Below, piece by piece: positions 2,349 through 58,367 of a stretch of DNA of 64,000 bases; the first letter of the stretch is position 1; every line of letters starts with the position of its first letter. The DNA lies in the NCBI RefSeq assembly GCF_029867415.1, contig NW_026705396.1, positions 248,001 through 312,000 of the forward strand. The letters are read 5' to 3'. The position numbers were made by a program, and so were the translations under genes. This stretch comes from Vicia villosa (Eukaryota; Streptophyta; Magnoliopsida; Fabales; Fabaceae). The notes under the pieces were generated by a model that did not search any database, was not told the DNA's origin, and saw only the letters and a program-made list of their open reading frames with translations.

Positions 2349-5300
2349 TGTAATACGGTGAACTGACTTTATCGAAATGTCGCGGTAAGCAAGAGTCGCC
2401 ACCGACTTTTATTTTATCCAAATTAAATAGAAAGGCTAAAAGAACAGAAAAAGAACTTTTATAAGATGTTGAGTTCGGGGGGTAGGTTATACAAAGGGAA
2501 GGTGTAAGGCACCCTTTGCATCCACAGTTTTCCATGGGCTCTTAATTTCTTAGCTCACTTTTTGTTTTTCAAAATGATTGAATTATTTGAAAAGTAGGGT
2601 GTGAATAGAAAAAGATTCGTTAAGGACTTTAGCTTGTAAATAAGCGTATCCTTGTTTGGAAAGTATTTGAGAAGAGTGGGAAAGATAGATTTGAATTTAA
2701 ATTTGAAAAAGAGCAAGCAATTAATAGAAACTACCCTTAAATTAGAAAAAAAGGTCTTTTAGCCTTTCAGGGCTATCCATACCATAGGAGGGTAGGAAGT
2801 CCTTGTATTGGAGGTTGAAGGGTCATCGAAGTTATCGTTCGCCATAAGACTGTCCTTGCCATAAAGAGGGCAAGTAGCCTAAGGGAAGGATATAATAGTC
2901 ATTAACTTTTTAGGCATCATGCGAGGATACCTTAGCAATTGGGACAATCATCTTATTTCCGAGGCAGCTTCGAGGGAGTTTCAATAACTTTAAAGGCAAC
3001 ATTTGCTTTAGGTATCCTCGGAATCGAGGGACTTGACTATTTTAAGGCATAATCAATAAGGCAACAAGGCAACAGTAATAAGGCAACAAGGCAACCAGAG
3101 GGATTACCCTAAAGGTGCGTGTGTGGCACAATCAGGTGGTTAATTCAGATATTTTATCTTATAATTAGTGATCTAGATTCAGTTCAAGGCTTGCACTCCC
3201 TAAGATTACTAACCACGCAGTTTAAAATTGCAGAAATTAAAAACAGAAAAATATAAAGTCCTACGCTATTACAATAAACACCTGCGGGGAAGGGGAATAA
3301 AAGGCAGAAAATAAGAGGAAACAATAATTAGTAAAAATCTTGAATTCCTTGATCTTCCTCGAACTCTCGATTGACTCTGAAAATTAAAAGGGAAAAAATA
3401 TGGGTTAGTGTAGGAGGGAATCATTGACTATTTGGGGCAAACCCTATTCTAGGCAAAAAAGCAAAATAGAAATTAAAATGATATTTAAACAAAGAAAGAG
3501 TTAGAAACTTAGCTTTTGATCTGATGGCGCGTGGCTGAAGGATCTTGATTAATCCTGAAAATTAGCCACGAAGAAGAAAAATGTTAGTGCATTAAAAACC
3601 TCAACAATTATAACGTGACAGATCAAAAATTAGAATGGTAATAATTTAGGCAGACAAATAAACAGGCAAGGCAAAAGGCAAACCCTGAAAGGGCTAAAAG
3701 TTAACCAGAGTTAATAGAAGAAATAGGTAAAAAGCTAGACTAGGGTTAACGGGCAACACCTACCAGAATGAGATTCTTAGAGTTAGGGGCAAAGGTCAAA
3801 GAAATCCTAAGGTTATACCTACGGACTAAGGTTTAAAATTATACCAAAATTAATCTAGTAAAAACCTAAATCCTAATTTGAAATAATTGAAAAAAAAAAA
3901 GAATTATGTAAAACAAATAATTTTAATGTTTAAATAATAATTAAAAGTTATTTTGTAAAAAAAAAAGTTGAACATTCGATTAAATATCATAATTATATGA
4001 TCTTTATTTATTTATATGATTTTTAGAAAAAAAATAAAATAACTAATAATGATTTATAATTTTTAAAACGATTGATATAAGAAAAATGCAATTAATTATA
4101 TATAAAAAAAAGTTTAGAAATCTTAGCTCTGGATCCTGTGTGAAGGCTTTATGATGGACCATGGTGGAACTGCAGTTTCTTGGGCGTACGATTTGGCACC
4201 ATGGAGATCCAACGATTGACATTTGAGAGTGCATCGTGAGCCATGTGTAGGAAGGATGCGCTGGATCTGAGAGTGAATCATTAGAAAAAATTATATGTCG
4301 TATGCCTGGTTCGAACCCAGGTTGTAATGGTTGCAAGTCTTCTTCAAATAATATATATAAAGTTTAATTCAAATGGGAAATTGAAAATAAAAGTCAAGTG
4401 TGGGCCCCCCTGTGATTACGCTGCAGCCAATTATTGGTGGAGAGAGGAAGTTGAAGGTTTGACCAGCCAATGAGAAGCAACGCGCGTGGGAAGAGAGAGA
4501 GCATGAAGATAGACTGGCCAATGAGGACAACCCAACGCACTATCAACAATTCATGGATACTATTCATCATCCCTCACCTTGTTTCCTGCGGATTTGCTTG
4601 TGGAATCTGTTGCGGTTTTACCTGCGACTTTTCCCACGATTTCAAAGGCAGCCATTGCTATATTTTGAAGCTTGCAAAACAAAGATTAAACACAGCGAGA
4701 AGCAACCCAGATCCCCTAATTCAAGGGCTGCGAGTTCAATGGAGTGCTTAGTTTGGCACGAAACTATCTGGAACCATGAAAACGAGTTGCATAGTGGTTC
4801 TTGCCCTAACAATGGTGTTTTGCGTTTTGGACGCTAAAGCTTCACATGAATGATCCAGACCTCTTCTATATCAAACCAAAAGCTCATTAAAACGATTAGT
4901 TAGCATTAAACCATGATACAGTAAGAGCTACGAAAAATCAATTTATGCATGAACATGGTGAACGTGATATAAGCATTATAGGTACTATAGAGACTTGAGA
5001 ACGATGCAGTCTTACCCTTCCTCACCTCAAGAATAAGTTAAGATGGTTGGCTCTCGTTGAAAGTAGCTGCACCTTGTAAAAAGAATTTGCACCTCTCTTG
5101 AATATTTTTTTTTGCACCTTTGGAAACCCTAGCCCTTGCTCAATTTTTCGTCCCCTTTGGCCTTCAATGAGTCACCTATATATAGTAGACTAAATTAGGT
5201 CAAGGAACTTGGAAGGAATTTATATATTTGGAGTGAATGGAATTTGATTGAAAATATGCATTAAATCTTTCTAAATTTGGCCAAATATGATCTTAATCTT

Positions 5301-6362
5301 TGCAAGCTTGAGGAGCACGAAATTTGATTGATTTTTGGAGTTAATGTTGATTGGATTTGATTAGAACCATGAGCCAAATTAAATCTTTGATTTTTCCCTT
5401 GATTTATTTGATCTTCATCATTTTTTAAATGAATAAAAATCCATAATAAATCAAGTAAATTCGTGGCAATTGGACTTTGGGCTCTACATATCATGAGGAT
5501 GGAGATTGGGCCAAGAAAGATTGGGTCTCTTTGCAAAAAAAATCCATTTTGAGGCCTTTTATTTCACATTTTTCTTCTCAAAATTTCCCAACTTTGACAA
5601 GGCATATCTCCCTCAATTTTTAAGGTATGGAAGAGTTCTAGGACTCTTTGGAAACCTCAAGATGTCCTCTACAAGCCACTTTGGAAGATTTTTTCCATTT
5701 GAGGATTTTATCTTGATAATATTGGCTTTGACAAAAAACTGCTTTTGGTTGACTTTCAAAAAGGACCTATAATATTTTGATCCATATATCTTAAATGAAG
5801 CATTTTCGGCCTTGGCTTATGAGAGACAAAATTGTAGAGAATTCAATTTCCTTCATAATCAGCTTTGGATGGGAAATTTATGATGTTCCATGTAGGAGTT
5901 ATGGCTGGTCAAAGTTCAGTTAACTTTCTCCTATGAAAACCCTAATTTAGAAACTTTTGATTTTGTTGATTTCTGATCTTTTCTTGATGAACCATGATCA
6001 ATCCTTGGTCAAATGATGAATGATACTTCATAATGAGGATGTTTACAAAAAATCAGAAGTTTTGACTGTGGTTTGACCATAGTTTGACTTTTAGGTTAAC
6101 TAGTCGATTATTGATCGTTTGGGCCGTTGGGTGAGCAATCTTTTGAATCAGAGCTTGAAAATTGGCATGAGGATTTTTGAGGCATATGAGAGGTTATGAG
6201 GTCCACTTGAATTGTTAGAACTTGATTTTTCTTGAAGAGAAGCAAAAACACTAGTTGTAGGTTGTTTGTTTACGAGAGTGTGTATCCACTTAGATATCGA
6301 GCTGGTGATACTTGGATGAGCTTGAGTATAAAAATGTGGTTGGAAAATTTTGGGGTATGACA
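2349..6362 (-). repeat. 5' LTR of Ogre-2
   Basis: On the minus strand the LTR starts TGTCATACCCCAAAATTTTC (ending at 6362) and ends in CCGTATTACA (2349). Its 3' part is clearly related to the solo LTR at 32326-35259: both contain the TGTAATACGGTG end, the AGTCGCCACCGACTTTTATT-like block and the phrase CTATCCATACCATA. A TATA-like CTATATATAG lies at about 5173-5183 (minus), which would give a U3 of about 1.2 kb and a long R/U5. The extra length over the solo LTR (about 4.0 versus 2.9 kb) may include inserted sequence. Confidence 0.8.
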
Positions 6363-50172: not shown

Positions 50173-50181
50173 CCACCCTCA

Positions 50182-50440
50182 GAATTTTTTTTTTTTGAAT
50201 ATCCAGATTTTTAAAAAAAATTTCAAAAATAACAAGTTTTTTAAAAAAATTCCCAAAATGTCATTTTTTTAAAAAAATACCACGTTGTCGCCAGGGGGTG
50301 GCGACAACACTCCTTTTACAAAGAAATCGCCATTGGGCCTGGCGACTATGTGCAAGTGCTTGGTGTTGTCGCCACCCCCCGGCGACAACACCCCCCCTTA
50401 TTTTTTTTTTCAATTTTTTTTATATTATTTTTTTAGCTTT
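50182..50440 (+). repeat. Left terminal inverted repeat of the MULE
   Basis: It begins GAATTTTTTTTTTTTGAATA and includes two GTTGTCGCC...GGCGACAAC palindromes (50284-50308 and 50365-50389). It matches the reverse complement of 57103-57906 once the hAT-like MITE is removed. Confidence 0.92.
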
Positions 50441-50568
50441 TTTTTTAGTTTGGAAAAATAATATCAATAAATTAAAAATTACCAAATACATTAGCCATTA
50501 ATCATAATTAAAAAAGTACATTAAAATTAAAAACAACACAAAATACATTAACGATAATAATAAAATTC

Positions 50569-52952
50569 CTATTGAGCGCCACGTGGACCATGATACGATC
50601 CGCAATCAGGTTGTCTAGTAAGTCGTGTAGAAGGGTCACGAGTTGGTAGTACTCCCCTATTCCTGCAACGCCCCCCTCTATTTGGTTCATCTTGTGTTTG
50701 AGTCGACGGCCCCTCAATGCATTCCGGGTCTACAAAATCTGTGAGCCTTCCTTGACCTCTAGAATTCCCGCTATAGGAAAGGCGGGTGCCCGCGGCGCCG
50801 TCAAAGCTTTGTCTAGGTGGGTTGAAATTTCTCCTAGTGGGTGCGGCCTCGAAGTTTAGTCTTTGGAAGTTGGTGGTGGATTCGGTTTGGTTAAAATAGA
50901 TTGGTTGTGGTGGTGTATTGAAGTTCAATGGTTGGTTGGGGTATTGTGATGTTGGTTGGTCGAATGTGTTGTATGGCGGGTATTCTTCTTGTATGCCTAT
51001 GTCGGGGGTAAGTGGTGGTGATCTGGAAGAGCTCCCCACATGGAGTTCTTGGAAGTGTGATCTGTAAGAGCTCCCCACATGGAGTTCTTGGAAGTGTAGG
51101 TGGTGGGGTTGAGTTTGTGGTTGAGTTTGGAATGGTTGTTGGTGGTGGTATTGTTGGGATTGTTGTTGTTGTTGTTGGTAAATAGGTGTTTGTTGGTTTA
51201 TTGGTTGTTGGTGGTAATTTTGTTGTTGTTGTTGTTGTGGTGGGTAATTTTGTTGTTGGAAATTTGGTGGTGGTTGATGATGTTGGAAATATGGTGGTGG
51301 TTGTTCTTGCTGAAAATTTTGTTGTTGTTGTTGTTATTGTTGTTGGAAAATATGTGGTTGTTGTTGTTGTCCTCCAAAATATGGTTGTTATGCTCGCGGG
51401 TCTGCCAAATAGAAAGGGGCAGACACAATCATTTCGGGATTTGTGATAGATCTGTACCAGTTGACATATTCAGCCGTTGGTTTCATTTCTTCCGGCGCCA
51501 CAGGAAATTGTAGAACAGTGGTGGAACGACGAGCCCATATTGTACGCTGCTCTTTAGCAAACGTCTTCCAATTTTCTACGTACCACTGTTCGCTAACCTT
51601 CGCCAGATGCCAACGTCCCAAAGAGTCAGGCTCAGGGGGGTCAGGGATACCTTGATGCATGCCGAATTGGAGCTTCACACGGTCACTTTGGTGCATCTCC
51701 ACAGTGGTGAACTGTATGATGGGTGGTTTTGCCGTCCAAACAGCCGCCTCTTTAGGGTCGGGTACGTGGTCCAGTCCCAAGTACGGTCTCCAAATAAACT
51801 GCAACGAAAAAAATATTAATTTCAAATTATAAAGATAGTTTATTTTACAAATATATTTAGAAGATGGAAATTTTTAGTGGTATTACATCTTGGGGTCGAA
51901 GTCGATCCAATAGTTGGCGGTAAAAAATGATTTTGTTTACAGGCGTATTGGTGTAATCCAACCCGGTTGCATTAAACCTAAACACATTCAAAAATAAAAA
52001 TCAATATAGTTACAATTAATAATAGAAAAAAATGCACTAATTAAAATAAGATCATTAAGTTACCTTGACGCGTAAGGGAAGACGTAAATGTGCGGATTTT
52101 CAGGGGCTAATACCGGCATTCTCCACCATCCCCATGTTTGTAGCAAGAATGCACATCCATTAAATGTACAACTATCCCTTTTTGCACATTTGCACAAGGA
52201 GCTATAGAGGTATCCCAACACCGCCGAACCCCAATTATACGTCTTAATGGCATCAATGTCCTCAAGTAGACACAAGTACATAAAATTAACACTATTCCCC
52301 GTGCCTTCGGGAAATAGAAACCTACCAAATAACAACATAATATACATTCTAGTTTTTTGTAGTTTACTTTCTTCACTAGAAAATTGATTCAACTGAAGGC
52401 CTTCATAAGCTTGTTGAAGGCCAGCAAGCTTTATACCTTGGCCCCTACCTCTTTGTCGCCCCTCACCCTCTATTAAATCTACACCCAACAATTCGAGGCA
52501 TAGAGTGTTTGGTTGTTGGACATTTCCAAACACAGCTTTTCCATTTGCGTTGAGACCCAATAACATGTACACGTCCTCTAGAGTGACGGTACATTCACCC
52601 ATTGGAAGGTGAAAAGTATGAGTCTCAGGCCTCCAGCGCTCACACAATGCTAATATAAACTTAGTATCGATTGAGGTACGTATTAAGTTCATTACCTTCC
52701 CAAACCCCGCACGGTCAACATAAGGCACAATTCAAGGGTCGGGAGCATTCATCGGTCCCGCACGGGTCCTAAATCTCGTGAAATCCTATAAAAAACGATG
52801 AACCATAAGTATTTGAATGTTTGAAATTAGTAAATTTAATTTAAAAAATTAAGTGTTTAGACCATAAATAAATTGAATTTACTCAAACTTACATAATCGG
52901 TGATGTTTGCAATGGCTCCTCGATGCTCTTGACCCATTGTTAGGAGAGACAT
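50569..52952 (-). pseudogene. Plant mobile domain (PMD) protein gene of the MULE, four exons
   Basis: A spliced frame of 701 codons can be traced: exon 1 52893-52952 (MSLLTMGQEHRGAIANITDY), exon 2 52064-52785, exon 3 51887-51977, exon 4 50569-51798. Donors are GTAAGT, GTAACT, GTAATA; acceptors are ATAG, TTAG, GCAG, and phases match throughout. Exon 2 holds the PMD core (CERWRPETHTFHLP, GECTVTLEDVYMLLGL, WGWWRMPVLAP), exon 3-4 FIWRPYLGLDH and WARRSTTVLQFP. A Gln/Asn-rich and then Pro/Ser/Gly-rich tail follows. PMD (PF10536) occurs in Arabidopsis MAIN/MAIL1 and in transposons; its role in MULEs is unknown. Three stops (TGA in exon 2; two TAA in the Gln-rich tract) are each one C-to-T change from Arg/Gln. 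A CTATAAATAGG TATA box lies about 90 bp upstream. Confidence 0.85.
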
Positions 52953-53040
52953 GTTTGTTGATGATGAAAACTAGTTGTTCTGATGAAAGTTGCTCTGATG
53001 AAAGTTGTTTGGTGATGAAGAAAATGAACAAGTTTGGGAA

Positions 53041-53051
53041 CCTATTTATAG
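53041..53051 (-). promoter_or_regulatory. TATA box of the MULE PMD gene
   Basis: The minus strand reads CTATAAATAGG about 90 bp before ATG 52952, a consensus plant TATA box supporting that ATG as the real start. Confidence 0.65.
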
Positions 53052-53132
53052 CCAAACGAAACACAATTAAACCACATAAATAAATGTGACAAGACAAGTG
53101 CATGCAACGGTTGAACACTTAACTCGAAGCAA

Positions 53133-53280
53133 GTCGCCACCCCCATTGGCGACAACTCTTAAAAATCAATGTTGTCGCCACTCCCACTGGCGACAACTCT
53201 TAAAAATCTATGTTGTCGCCACCCTCATTGGCGACAACTCTTAAAAATCAATGTTGTCGCCACCCCCATTGGCGACCGCC
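53133..53280. repeat. Four 41-bp repeats with GTTGTCGCC/GGCGACAAC palindromes
   Basis: GTCGCCAC starts at 53133, 53174, 53215 and 53256, spaced exactly 41 bp; each unit reads GTCGCCACCCCCATTGGCGA then CAACTCTTAAAAATCAATGT. The same inverted motif is found in both terminal repeats. The array lies between the divergent PMD and transposase genes, about 80 bp upstream of the PMD TATA box, and is a candidate transposase-binding or promoter region. Confidence 0.92.
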
Positions 53281-53289
53281 ATAAATGCA

Positions 53290-53815
53290 TAGGTGTGTAA
53301 GAGATTCCCTAGCCTGCATGCATGCTTGTGTAAGAGGTGGGGACGAGATTCCATTGTGGCATGCATTAGTCTTGTCATGTTTGATTCTTGCATGTATTAT
53401 TGCATGTATTCTTGCATGCATCCTTGTGTAAGAGGTGGGCAAGAGATTCTATTGTGGCATGCATTAGTCTTGTCATGTTTGATTCTGTCATGTATTATTG
53501 CATGTATTCTTGCATGCATCCTTGTGTAAGAGGTGGGCACGAGATTCTATTGTGGAATGCATTAGTCTTGTCATGTTTGATTCTTGCATGTATTATTGCA
53601 TGTATTCTTGCATGCATGCTTGTGTAAGAGGTGGGGACGAGATTCCATTGTGGCATGCATTAGTCTTGTCATGTTTGATTCTTGCATGTATTATTGCATG
53701 TATTCTTGCATGCATCCTTGTGTAAGAGGTGGGTACGAGATTCTATTGAGGCATGCATTAGTCTTATCATGTTTGATTCTTGCATTATTGCATGTATTCT
53801 TGCATGTATTATATG
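53290..53815 (+). repeat. 98-bp tandem array (five units) upstream of the transposase
   Basis: TAAGAGGTGG starts at 53331, 53430, 53527, 53625 and 53723, a period of 97-99 bp. Each unit contains two or more CATGCA (RY-type) motifs plus TTAGTCTTGTCATGTTTGAT. It ends about 110 bp before the transposase ATG. The array stays open in one frame fused to the transposase, but the cysteine-rich translation is an artefact. Confidence 0.92.
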
Positions 53816-53866
53816 AACCACTTCACAAATTTTTTACAACACATTTCTCCCAAACATTTTTTCGTT

Positions 53867-53876
53867 CACATATAAA
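53867..53876 (+). promoter_or_regulatory. Possible TATA box of the MULE transposase
   Basis: CATATAAACT lies about 50-60 bp before ATG 53926, downstream of the 98-bp array. Confidence 0.4.
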
Positions 53877-53925
53877 CTTCACAAACATTTCTCCCAGATA
53901 TTTCTCACAAATACCTATTAAAGTT

Positions 53926-56313
53926 ATGGCATCCACCTCACAATACAAAGTTCGTGTTCATATGAACGGTGAGACTTACCACTGCGACACAAACGGTTTT
54001 CTATTTAGAAACACTAACTCAACACGTTTTGCTCTAAATAGAAAAGCGGATTTCTCTTATCTAAAAAGGAAAATCGAATCCAAAATTAGAGAACCAGTCT
54101 CTCAAATATTTTACCAACAACCCTTAGTTGAACCTAACAACTCGGTCAAGTTTTATCAATCACAGATCACAACTGACATAGAGGTTCAAAACATGTTCCT
54201 TACCCATGAGTATTTTGGTTATGATTATCTGGAACTGTACATAGTGGTTGAACAAATTGTTCCTTCGCAAAATATCCAGTCACAGGTTATTGATCATGTT
54301 GTTGATGACAAACAACAGCCCGAAGATGTCATTGATGAAGAAACTGAAATAAAAGATGTCGTTGATGAGTTGGTGAACCGTGATTCCGAAGATGACGAAC
54401 AAGTTCCAGTACCGGATACACATGCATATTCACCTCCAGCACATTTCACAACACTTAATTTGGGAGAGGATGAGCCATCGTCTGATATGTTCTACAATTC
54501 ATATATGAGGTCAGACGAGGAGTTAAAAGAGGGTGACACGTTTCATTCGAAGGATGATTGTATGTTAGCTATAAAAAACTGGAACTTAGCAAATTGTGTT
54601 GATTTTAAAGCTGAATGCTCAAATCCAGAGAGAGTCACTATTTTGTGCAGAAACCCGGAGTGTGGATACATGTTGAAGGCATCATTCAGAAAGAAATTTA
54701 ATGCGTGGGTGATACATTTGATTTCTCAAGGCCACACTTGCGTCAACACAAATATGGCGCAAGATCATCGGAAACTCAGTCATGACATGATATGTCATAC
54801 CATCATTCCTCTCGTCGAAACTGACCCATCACTGAAGGTGAAGACGATTATTTCCCATTGCGTTTCTGTGTTCAAGTACAGACCTTCGTACAGAAAGGCT
54901 TGGTTAGCGAAGCATAAAGTAATTGAAAAAGTCTACGGCAACTGGGAGGAATCATACCAACAACTTCCTCGCTACCTGGCTGCACTGCAATTGTATTCAC
55001 CTGGGACTGTTACTATATTGGAGACACTGCCGGCACAATCCCAAGACGGAACCCCTCTCGAAGGTAATGGAATCTTCCATAGACTGTTCTGGGCGTTTTG
55101 ACCATGCATCATCGGTTATGGTTTTTGCAAGCCGATTATTCAAATTGATGGAACCTGGTTGTATGGGAAATACAAGGGAACATTGCTGATGGCGGTCGCA
55201 CAGGATGGAAACAGCAACATTTTTCCAATAGCCTTTGCTCTAGTAGAAGGAGAAACAGTTGTTGCTTGTAGTTTCTTTCTGAAGAATCTCCGAGCTAGAG
55301 TTGCTCCACAATCTAATCTTTGTTTGATTTCGGACAGGCATGCTTCTATTGACAGCGCATACAACAATCCGGCAAATGGTTGGCACAACCCCCCGTCTAA
55401 GCATGTCTACTGTATTAGGCATATAGCACAAAATTTTATAAGAGAGATCAAAGATAAATTTTTGAAGAACCACTTGGTGAACGCGGGGTATGCCTTAAAC
55501 CAACCTGGATTTCAATACTACCGCCGAGAAATAGCGTTGACAAATCCAGATGCAGGGAGGTGGATTGACAGCATTGACAGAGCGAGATGGACTAGGTCAT
55601 ACGACGATGGGGCTAGGTGGGGCCACATGACTACAAATCTTGTGGAATCAATGAACGGGGTTATCAAAGGCATACGAAACCTACCTGTAACTGCTTTGGT
55701 CAGTGCTACGTATTTTCGGATGACAACTTTGTTCGCCACAAGAGGTAAGCGGTGGAATTTAGTATTACAAACACAACAGGTATACAGCGATGTCTGCATG
55801 AAATATATACAACAAGAATCTGCCAAGGGTAACACTCATCGAGTGACCGAGTTCGACCGTCATGGCCACACCTTCAGTGTAATAGAAACAATTGACCACA
55901 ACCAGGGGCTTCCACGACAAGAGTATCGCGTCTCGATCCCAGATCGTTGGTGCGACTGTGGCCAATTTCAAGCATATCGCATGCCTTGCTCCCATGTCAT
56001 TGCAGCATGTTCACATACTCACTTTGATGCATTATCTTTGGTATCAGAAATTTACAAGGTATCAACGTTGCTCAACGTATACGACAATTACTTTCCGGTG
56101 ATAGTAATGGAGGCATATTGGCCTGTGTACGAGGGGGAAACAGTTTGGCATAACGATTTAATGTGTCGTAATAAAAGCGGTCGACCAAACAGCAGGCGTA
56201 TTATAACCGAGATGGACTCCACTAAAAAAATGCATAGGAAGTGTAGTATATGTCGTGAGGTAGGACATAATAGGAACAAATGTCCTAATCGTGGATCTAG
56301 CTCCACAACATAG
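53926..56313 (+). pseudogene. MULE transposase (MURA type), one in-frame stop
   Basis: From ATG 53926 (MASTSQYKVRVHMNGETYH) the frame is continuous for 795 residues except for TGA at codon 392 (55099-55101, after FWAF; possibly CGA before mutation). An acidic linker is followed by the MuDR-type zinc-finger region (C..ERVTILCRNPECGY, ISQGHTC). The catalytic core follows: D408 in QIDGTWLYGKY, D470 in LISDRHASI, E574 in NLVESMNGV. A SWIM finger (C676, C678, C688, H690 in CDCGQFQAYRMPCSH) and a C-terminal knuckle (C773, C776, H781, C786) complete it. It would bind the terminal repeats and cut and paste the element in the nucleus. An upstream in-frame extension to 53584 is only the tandem array. 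Length and domain set are normal for a full plant MULE transposase. Confidence 0.93.
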
Positions 56314-56480
56314 TTTTTAGTTGCAATGATATTTGTGATTTACTTTTTCAATGAAATGGACTTTTTTTCATTAATTAGATGGATTACAACAACACAACAA
56401 ACAACACAACAAACAACAAACATTAGGCCTAGAAATAAATTTTTACCTAATAACACAACAACACAAAAAACAATTAAAAT

Positions 56481-56834
56481 CTATGAAATTATAGCGGTTA
56501 AAACAATGTCGTCTGTTCCGTCCATTATTTGTTCAGTATCATGGTCGGTTTTCACATCAACCCACCAACGGATCGTCTCTCCGGTCCTAAGCGACACCCT
56601 TGTTCTAAGCCTCTGAATCCTTTTTATTTCTTCTCCGGGACTGTACTCCCCTTCTAACTGTGCCATCAGAGTCCGCTTTAGGTTGTTGAAGTCGCGGATG
56701 TTTCAAAACGTCACCGCCATAGGAGGTTTGACTGGGGAAAAAATTACATGACCATAACATCTCTTGTATTCCGGCGCCGGCACAGGACGGCTGGATGATG
56801 TTCGTTCCCATGACTGCGGCCTTATGCGAGACAT
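56481..56834 (-). pseudogene. Third MULE gene: small uncharacterised ORF convergent with the transposase
   Basis: From ATG 56834 (MSRIRPQSWERTSSSRP) the frame runs 117 codons to TAG 56481, interrupted only by TGA at codon 44 (56703-56705, one C-to-T change from CGA). Notable segments are RCYGHVIFSPVKPPMAV, YSPGEEIKRIQRLRTRV and GETIRWWVDVKTDHDTEQ; there is no signal peptide, membrane segment or zinc finger. A TATA box (CTATATATAGG, 56907-56917) lies 73 bp upstream on the same strand. It ends 168 bp from the end of the transposase, tail to tail, the position of mudrB in maize MuDR, but I see no similarity to a known family. The function is unknown. Confidence 0.7.
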
Positions 56835-56906
56835 GATCAATAATGTGAAGTGAATATGGAAAAATTGAAGGAGAAAATAATGAAGATTGATTTCATGATG
56901 AGCTGC

Positions 56907-56917
56907 TATATATAGGC
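56907..56917 (-). promoter_or_regulatory. TATA box of the third MULE gene
   Basis: CCTATATATAG on the minus strand, 73 bp before ATG 56834. A GTTGTCGCC motif (56931-56939) lies just upstream of it. Confidence 0.6.
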
Positions 56918-56939
56918 CAAAATATTAAGTGTTGTCGCC

Positions 56940-57165
56940 ACCCAAGGAGGCGACCGGGACAGCTGGATGCAACTAAAAAAATAATATAAAAAATAATAAA
57001 AAATAGTTAAACAAAATAATATAAAAAAATAATGAAAAATAAATAGTAAATAAAAAAATAATGGAAAATAATAATGGAAAAAAATAATGAAAAAAAAATA
57101 GTAAGTAAAAAAATAATATAAAAAAAATTGAAAAAAAAATAAGGGGGGGTGTTGTCGCCAGGGGG
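56940..57165. other. A-rich subterminal region and start of the right terminal repeat
   Basis: It is dominated by AAAAAATAATGAAAAAAATA-like runs up to 57140, then GGGGGGGTGTTGTCGCC of the right terminal inverted repeat, which starts at about 57103. No gene. Confidence 0.7.
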
Positions 57166-57906
57166 GTGGCGACTATAGCTGTCCAAACGGGCTACCCGGC
57201 CCTAAACGGGCCGGCCCTAGTGGGCCTCGGGCTTTTTCGGGCCGGGCCTAAAAAGCCCATTTTTATATGGGCTCTATTTTTACTACCCAGGCCCAGCCCT
57301 GTTCGGGCCTCGGGCTTTTTCGGGCCGGACCCAAAAAGCCCATTTCCAAAATATATATTAAATATTCTCTTTAATTTAAAAAAATAAATTATATTAAGCT
57401 TAATTTTTAAAAAAATATTAAAATTTGTTTTTATATTTCACTATTATAAAATATATTTTAAAGAAATAAAAAAATTTGAATTTTTTAATTAGTATTAAAT
57501 ATTAAATTTTATTAATTAAATATTAAATTTTACTATTTATCGGGCCCATGGGCTACCCGGAGCCCATACGGGCTGGCCCATTTAAGGCCGGGCTTTTTCG
57601 GGCCGGGCTCAAAAAGGCCCGAAACAAAATGGGCTCAAAAAATTAGGCCCAAGCCCTAACATTTTTCGGGCCCCGCGGGCCGGCCCATGGGCTTCGGCCC
57701 ATTTTGACGGCTCTAGTGGCGACAACACCTGTTTTTTGAACGCATGCGCCAGGCCCATTGGCGACAACGTGTTGGGCTTAGTGTTGTCGCCACCCCCCGG
57801 CGACAACGTGTTATTTTTTTAAAAAAAAAGACATTTTGGTAATTTTTTTGAAAAACTTGTTATTTTTGAAATTTTTTTTAAAAATCTGGATATTCAAAAA
57901 AAATTC
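57103..57906 (-). repeat. Right terminal inverted repeat of the MULE, split by a MITE
   Basis: It is the reverse complement of the left repeat, ending GGATATTCAAAAAAAATTC at 57906. It carries GTTGTCGCC/GGCGACAAC motifs at 57151, 57718, 57760, 57783 and 57799. The 542-bp hAT-like element at 57174-57715 and its 8-bp duplication interrupt it. Confidence 0.9.
57174..57715. mobile_element. hAT-like non-autonomous element, TSD GTGGCGAC
   Basis: The element runs from TATAGCTGTCCAAACGGGC to GCCCATTTTGACGGCTCTA, inverted ends of TAxAGCxGTC type. It is flanked by a perfect 8-bp duplication GTGGCGAC (57166-57173 and 57716-57723). The arms are GC-rich with repeated GGGCCGG/GGCCCG words around an AT-rich centre and no coding capacity. 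The uninterrupted sequence is visible in the opposite MULE repeat. An 8-bp duplication is the hAT signature. Confidence 0.9.
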
Positions 57907-57947
57907 CCACCCTCAAGTCATTTGCATCATCCATCATAAATCAAAGA

Positions 57948-58367
57948 ATGGAACATTCACCACTTTTCTTCTTGTTACTCACCATTGCATTGATTTTTAC
58001 TTCTCATGCTATGTCACCAACAAATGAGGCTCAACAACATTGCTTGAAACTTCTCAAAGGTGATTATCAAACATCAGCCAAAAACTATCTTACATTCTGC
58101 AACTTATATTTAGGGTTTGCAAAAGAAAAAGCCATCATAGGTATACATTACTCCAAGAGTTTGGTGAAAGAATACTTATCTTCTTCTGAAGCCATCAAAT
58201 ATTATGAAGTTTTGATTCTAGGGTTTATAGGCGTGACATCTCAGTTGAGTATGGAACCAAATGACGTATTTTGGGATGCCATATCCGGTGAATGGGGACT
58301 CTTGAAAAAAATGTTAATTGTTTTATTTCCTATATTACATGGTGTAGTGATAAACAATCCTCTATAA
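57948..58367 (+). CDS. PMEI-2: PMEI-like protein, decayed and promoter-disconnected
   Basis: A 139-residue ORF with a signal peptide (LFFLLLTIALIFTSHAM) and helix segments clearly paralogous to PMEI-1 (CLKLLKGDYQTSAKNYLTFC, SLVKEYLSSSEAIK). It is shorter and lacks the first hairpin Cys and the C107/C147 pair of PMEI-1, keeping only C32 and C51; the C-terminal helix is replaced by a hydrophobic tail. It is nearly identical to PMEI-3 except for the frame-preserving region after EAIK. The MULE sits between its TATA box (50157) and ATG, so normal expression is unlikely. I call it a probable pseudogene with an open frame. Confidence 0.65.
   Translation: MEHSPLFFLLLTIALIFTSHAMSPTNEAQQHCLKLLKGDYQTSAKNYLTFCNLYLGFAKEKAIIGIHYSKSLVKEYLSSSEAIKYYEVLILGFIGVTSQLSMEPNDVFWDAISGEWGLLKKMLIVLFPILHGVVINNPL

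Follow-up and report, generated by a model that had tools for sequence, protein, structure and literature searches.

That Mutator-like elements (MULEs) carry antisense genes for the plant mobile domain (PMD) is already known: in the table of Dupeyron 2019 (PMC6446971), MULE groups 46-50 have PMD, often antisense, half of the VANDAL members have PMD and/or DUF, and the entry for group 42 reads 'unknown ORF and PMD (antisens)'. The proposal that such genes counteract silencing is likewise established in the literature through Ikeda 2017 (PMC5418596), where PMD-C captured by MULEs as fusions was suggested to act in anti-silencing, and through a 2021 review (PMC8616336) restating this for PMD-C in MULEs; no test of the suggested role was found in the literature passages on MULE PMD. 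Here, we analyzed a 64 kb stretch of the Vicia villosa genome (contig NW_026705396.1, C473 in our numbering, C473:248001-312000; "the window" hereafter), which holds a PMD-carrying MULE with a MURA transposase gene and a small third gene, ORF3. New here are the joint divergence of PMD and MURA with the third gene standing apart, and, as the unexpected part, a cassette of small genes.

Compared by description only, MULE groups 46-50 (MuDR-9_OS, MULE-Monocots, MDR, MUDRAVI2, MUDR; PMC6446971, Table 1) resemble the window element as plant MULEs with a SWIM or CCHC transposase, target site duplications (TSDs) of 9 bp where given, terminal inverted repeats (TIRs) of up to several hundred bp and an often antisense PMD, whereas the table rows name PMD (FAR1 in one subgroup) and no small third gene. 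The group 42 entry belongs to MULE-Solanaceae_1, so that a three-gene layout may be on record, although the TIR is listed there as none and the comparison is limited to the table entry. PMD-C/transposase fusions of grasses and Amborella (PMC5418596) likewise place PMD in MULEs and gave rise to the anti-silencing idea, but are fusion proteins, while the PMD gene described here is separate and divergent. VANDAL/Hiun elements with VANB and VANC share the presence of extra genes and repeated non-coding motifs in a MULE. In MUSTANG B (MUGB) genes, the transposase derives from a MULE and a short 5' exon encodes PB1 (PMC3435246); these are host genes with fused PB1, whereas we propose a PB1-like module, weakly indicated as a fold, that also occurs as free-standing genes. 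Nicolau 2020 (PMC7156037) regards eudicot PMD-C as mainly genic, and the large set of PMD genes borne by transposable elements (TEs) in this genome stands alongside that view.

The window element, an autonomous-type MULE of the PMD-carrying kind, has decayed. We consider it probable that PMD and MURA are co-inherited in this kind of element, that the small genes form an exchangeable cassette and that both act as proposed below. From left to right, the element consists of PMD (-), an intergenic region containing a pair of tandem arrays, MURA (+) and ORF3 (-), with the following features in window coordinates:

50182..57906: MULE, ends from TSD and TIRs
50173..50181: left 9-bp TSD, CCACCCTCA
57907..57915: right 9-bp TSD, CCACCCTCA
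50182..50436, + strand: left TIR, about 255 bp, containing 4 GTTGTCGCC copies
57102..57906, - strand: right TIR, interrupted by a nested insertion at 57174-57715; inner border approximate
50569..52952, - strand: PMD gene, predicted exons 52952-52893, 52785-52064, 51977-51887 and 51798-50569; PF10536, Q-rich tail
53133..53276: tandem array, 41 bp x 3.5, between PMD and MURA in their common intergenic region; contains GTTGTCGCC
53315..53806: tandem array, 98 bp x 5.1, upstream of MURA
53926..56313, + strand: MURA transposase gene, PF10551 and PF04434; one in-frame TGA at 55099-55101
56481..56834, - strand: ORF3, third gene, 117 codons, convergent to MURA; in-frame stop at 56703-56705
57174..57715: nested, probably hAT-like miniature inverted-repeat transposable element (MITE), 542 bp; 8-bp TSD GTGGCGAC at 57166-57173 and 57716-57723

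The ends described in an earlier note on this DNA were confirmed. Both CCACCCTCA flanks agree at 9/9 positions, while flanks cross-paired between different elements by the same search reached at best 7/9 in 2/70 pairs, with the other 68 lower (the set takes in both the window element and its duplicate, see below). The TIR arms show 92% cumulative identity across the first 255 left-arm bases with the nested insertion skipped, and 89% across the first 181. The element thus has the 9-bp TSD and the long terminal inverted repeats of a MULE.

Pfam analysis of the PMD gene revealed PF10536 in parts of two exons (1.4e-48 and 1.5e-14), and of MURA the MULE domain PF10551 (2e-15) and SWIM PF04434 (2.7e-6), all exceeding the curated cut-offs. 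The reported divergent, spliced PMD gene is thereby supported, with GT-AG borders suggesting four exons. The description of MURA as almost intact, with D, D, E, SWIM and CCHC motifs, stood for the MULE and SWIM domains; the CCHC knuckle is visible but gave only a weak Pfam match (0.26), the D, D and E residues were identified by eye only, and decay extends to all three genes, with one stop each in MURA and ORF3 and three in the spliced PMD frame (codons 38, 428 and 446 of 700). No known domain was found in ORF3; its status as a third small gene is corroborated by its relatives, 16/20 copies being free of stops and the window copy being among the 4 with one.

Twenty loci were fetched via ORF3 similarity, so that ORF3 is present in all of them by construction. 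PMD, MURA and ORF3, some fragmentary, were detected together in 14/20, the near-identical duplicate L011 included, while PMD or MURA was undetectable in six (L017, L018, L019, L022, L023 and L026). Since all three genes, some fragmentary, occur in 13/19 further loci once the window is excluded, the arrangement is not a one-off gene capture, the outcome by which the earlier note would have been overturned. The assembly contains the window insertion a second time, on C281, where the TSD is identical, the flank agrees over the 30-odd bases compared and the catalytic part of MURA (MURA_C) is 99% identical; this copy represents either an assembly duplicate or a segmental duplication rather than an independent insertion, and was left out of distinct-copy counts and selection analyses. 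Of the distinct elements with both ends, 7/8 keep 8-9/9 TSD positions and L012 only 5/9. Pooled ratios of nonsynonymous to synonymous divergence (dN/dS) among copies were lower in the true frame than in shifted frames for MURA_C (0.43 vs 0.81-0.91), the N-terminal part of MURA (0.51 vs 0.72 and 0.85), PMD exon 2 (0.54 vs 0.99-1.12) and ORF3 (0.41 vs 0.68-1.10), whereas PMD exon 4 (0.63) was inseparable from its shifted frames (0.55, 0.84) and showed no clear selection.

A second subfamily, Y, is a younger and larger relative of W, the subfamily of the window, and is exemplified by the element at L038 and L039 (C1:25985400-25994700) with 338-bp TIRs that are 90.8% alike, a perfect 9-bp TSD ACATTTAGC, an open MURA frame of 841 codons and long, open PMD frames. 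Between PMD and MURA it carries two small genes, ORFa and ORFb, on the minus strand; ORFb shares 47.5% identity with the window ORF3, and no further ORF3 match was found in the element. As a side observation, L038 contains a 103-bp x 4.9 array upstream of MURA (5184-5685), whose units resemble the 98-bp units of the window by eye. The PMD exon query yielded 20,262 first-look candidates, 150 of which were scored; these cover the query fully or almost fully, at 84-100% identity, and 14, that of L038 included, tie at 449.7 bits (85%). Among 103 scored MURA loci, 12 share a score of 909.4 bits, and their open frames are 841-845 codons long. The best 150 matches of each small gene, which as top-scoring matches are biased toward intact ones, are stop-free in 143 cases for ORFb and 142 for ORFa, and 15 and 22, respectively, are 100% identical to the query, the query counted. 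At 12 loci both small proteins are 100% identical to their queries, and four of these also hold the 909.4-bit MURA and the 449.7-bit PMD scored at L038, although score ties are no proof of sequence identity. Y is a young subfamily in which several loci carry intact gene sets that match one another; the earlier suggestion that active relatives are plausible is supported by these findings, though not proven.

PMD and MURA recur as a pair whose divergent layout is fixed, and both genes are under selection. A listed PMD lies within 8 kb of 56 of the 103 scored MURA loci (0.05 expected, mean of 20 shifts) and is divergent in 56/56; the remaining 47 have no PMD among the best 150 matches listed, which does not equal absence. 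PMD and ORFb are both listed at 39/103 loci, always in the order PMD, ORFb, MURA (39/39), with ORFb only at 27, PMD only at 17 and neither at 20; all three companions are listed at 27/103, in the order PMD, ORFa, ORFb, MURA in 27/27. Between W and Y, two parts of MURA show a synonymous divergence (dS) of 0.285 and 0.175, and PMD exon 2 one of 0.316; dN/dS is 0.18 for MURA and 0.26 for PMD exon 2. Owing to this similar dS, PMD and MURA appear to diverge together and to be co-inherited, while the third gene follows a different history: the W (L012 used) and Y third genes differ by a dS of 1.98 and sit at different places in the element. The suggestion that PMD and transposase move as one unit is thus supported; over longer times, the third gene parts from both. 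As to the kinds of cooperation named in the earlier note, target choice, at which no test was aimed, has no support in these data.

This separate history is also seen in another element, Z (L040). Relative to W and Y, its MURA retains 48-50% amino acid identity (first 277-281 codons compared) and its PMD exon 2 59-60%, with saturated synonymous sites in both. In contrast to this distance, Z and Y are 98% identical in ORFa (98 codons; the stop in the Z copy was skipped; dS 0.105) and 90% in ORFb (dS 0.286). The common block spans 1155 bp at 87.6% identity, including the spacer between ORFa and ORFb (75-85%), outside of which identity drops to 50-67%, and Z carries the cassette flipped with respect to MURA. 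Of 49 listed ORFb matches at 89-92% identity, the class of Z, 45 have no listed W/Y-type PMD or MURA nearby. In a further context, V (L041, C1:162100000-162101900), the ORFa-ORFb pair aligns over 1083 bp with 83.7% of nucleotides identical, ORFa being 97% and ORFb 86% identical. Across three contexts, dN/dS is 0.03-0.11 for ORFa and 0.12-0.20 for ORFb. All 94 of the best 150 ORFa matches with a listed ORFb show the same strand and a spacing of about 500-800 bp; the other 56 have no ORFb among the best 150 listed. Separately, 16 of the best 150 ORFa matches have the 112-codon frame of L041 and no listed ORFb, PMD or MURA nearby.

More distant relatives of ORF3 extend the range of backgrounds. 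L032 is intermediate, with a W-type MURA fragment and ORF3 at 74-75%, while relatives at 60-66% sit in another repeat (L037/L033 and L036/L031), with a different transposase on the same strand as the ORF3 relative; the L037 transposase matches Pfam MULE at 1.1e-8 and FAR1 only at 0.024. L034 and L035 have the same repeat as the L033/L031 loci, and no PMD was found at E<=0.01 in L031 or L033-L035. A region between transposase and ORF3 relative looks OTU-like by eye, for which the Pfam/PDB searches of the L033 segment gave no support. Thus, the third gene is a member of a small, mostly open gene family present in several MULE backgrounds, and relatives of it are arranged in a cassette whose history is unlike that of the adjacent transposase. 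No account of such cassette exchange between MULEs was found in the open-licence literature, in which no search was aimed at exchange.

Alternatively, the low dS of the cassette could reflect synonymous-site constraint or gene conversion at an ancestral location, with no transfer. The ORFa identity of 95-100% throughout the best 150 scored matches would fit this explanation, but the inversion of the cassette in Z and the abrupt loss of identity directly outside it, while the ORFa/ORFb spacer still aligns, make it unlikely.

Regarding the origin of the small proteins, ORFa resembles the N-terminus of the window MURA (score 72, z 10.4, 0/1000 shuffles as good) and, less consistently, the ORF3 family (0/1000 shuffles for 3/7 members), and a PB1-like fold is weakly indicated for ORFa and ORF3. 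We tentatively entertain the idea, which we hold to be possible rather than likely, that ORF3, ORFa and ORFb are stand-alone genes from a PB1-like N-terminal module of the element's own transposase, and that they constitute a portable control cassette passed between distant MULE lineages in one genome, flipped, repositioned and held under strong purifying selection, with PMD and transposase staying linked.

In the mechanism that we propose for the co-inherited pair and its exchangeable cassette, MURA would cut and paste the element via the long TIRs. The GTTGTCGCC repeats in the TIRs and the intergenic region may be the sites at which the element is recognized by MURA or by another factor that it encodes. 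This motif has 16 copies in the 64 kb, 16/16 of them in non-coding parts of the element (0.02 expected in the element by first-order Markov simulation), namely in the TIRs, in the PMD/MURA intergenic array, once upstream of ORF3 and once subterminally. Each of 11 other W-type loci tested holds 7-14 copies, L032 holds 3, and the Y element keeps the motif only in its TIRs. In the nucleus, PMD could lift host silencing from the element, or deflect it, via the domain it has in common with host MAIN/MAIL1. The cassette would be exchanged between elements, and its small proteins, which may descend from the transposase N-terminal module or have the same fold, would have a role in the assembly of the transposase, either as partners or as regulators.

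Two other assignments of function were considered. The third gene could be a VANC-like anti-silencing factor binding the repeated motif, with PMD as its partner: VANC targets often form tandem repeats, which differ from one related element to another (PMC5735166), intergenic tandem repeats are present here, and W and Y have different arrays beside PMD and also different third genes. However, the four OTU-like loci with an ORF3 relative (L031 and L033-L035) hold only 0-1 GTTGTCGCC copies and no known domain was found in ORF3, which renders this assignment quite improbable. Alternatively, PMD could be a brake that recruits host silencing to limit copy number, in keeping with the requirement of host MAIN/MAIL1 for TE silencing (PMC5418596, PMC7156037); we give this little credence, as the many near-identical loci belong to the very subfamily whose PMD frames are open, an observation that is only suggestive. 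That PMD and the third gene are mere passengers, host gene pieces acquired by transduplication as in Pack-MULEs and of no role for the element, is highly improbable despite recorded host-gene capture by MULEs (PMC6446971, PMC13317346), the six loci with undetectable PMD or MURA and the lack of clear selection on PMD exon 4, given the conserved layout, the dN/dS of PMD exon 2 and ORF3 below shifted frames and the predominance of stop-free ORFa and ORFb frames within a sample biased to intact ones.

The insertion nested in the right TIR is probably a hAT-like MITE, as judged from its 8-bp TSD and imperfect TIR sequences (TATAGCTGTC/TAGAGCCGTC). The element may sit in the 5' region of an open frame (57948-58364) that begins about 40 bp to its right; the start of this frame is secretion-like, and by eye the frame resembles invertase/pectinesterase inhibitors, but a Pfam search gave no match.

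The intact matching Y gene sets at several loci render the PMD anti-silencing idea testable. Because the cassette has a history different from that of the PMD-transposase pair, the swapping of modules is suggested to be part of how MULEs evolve, and the cassette itself offers a concrete candidate for a protein that partners the transposase. If it is indeed portable, it could set which transposase copies assemble, as a kind of self-recognition or dosage control among transposons.

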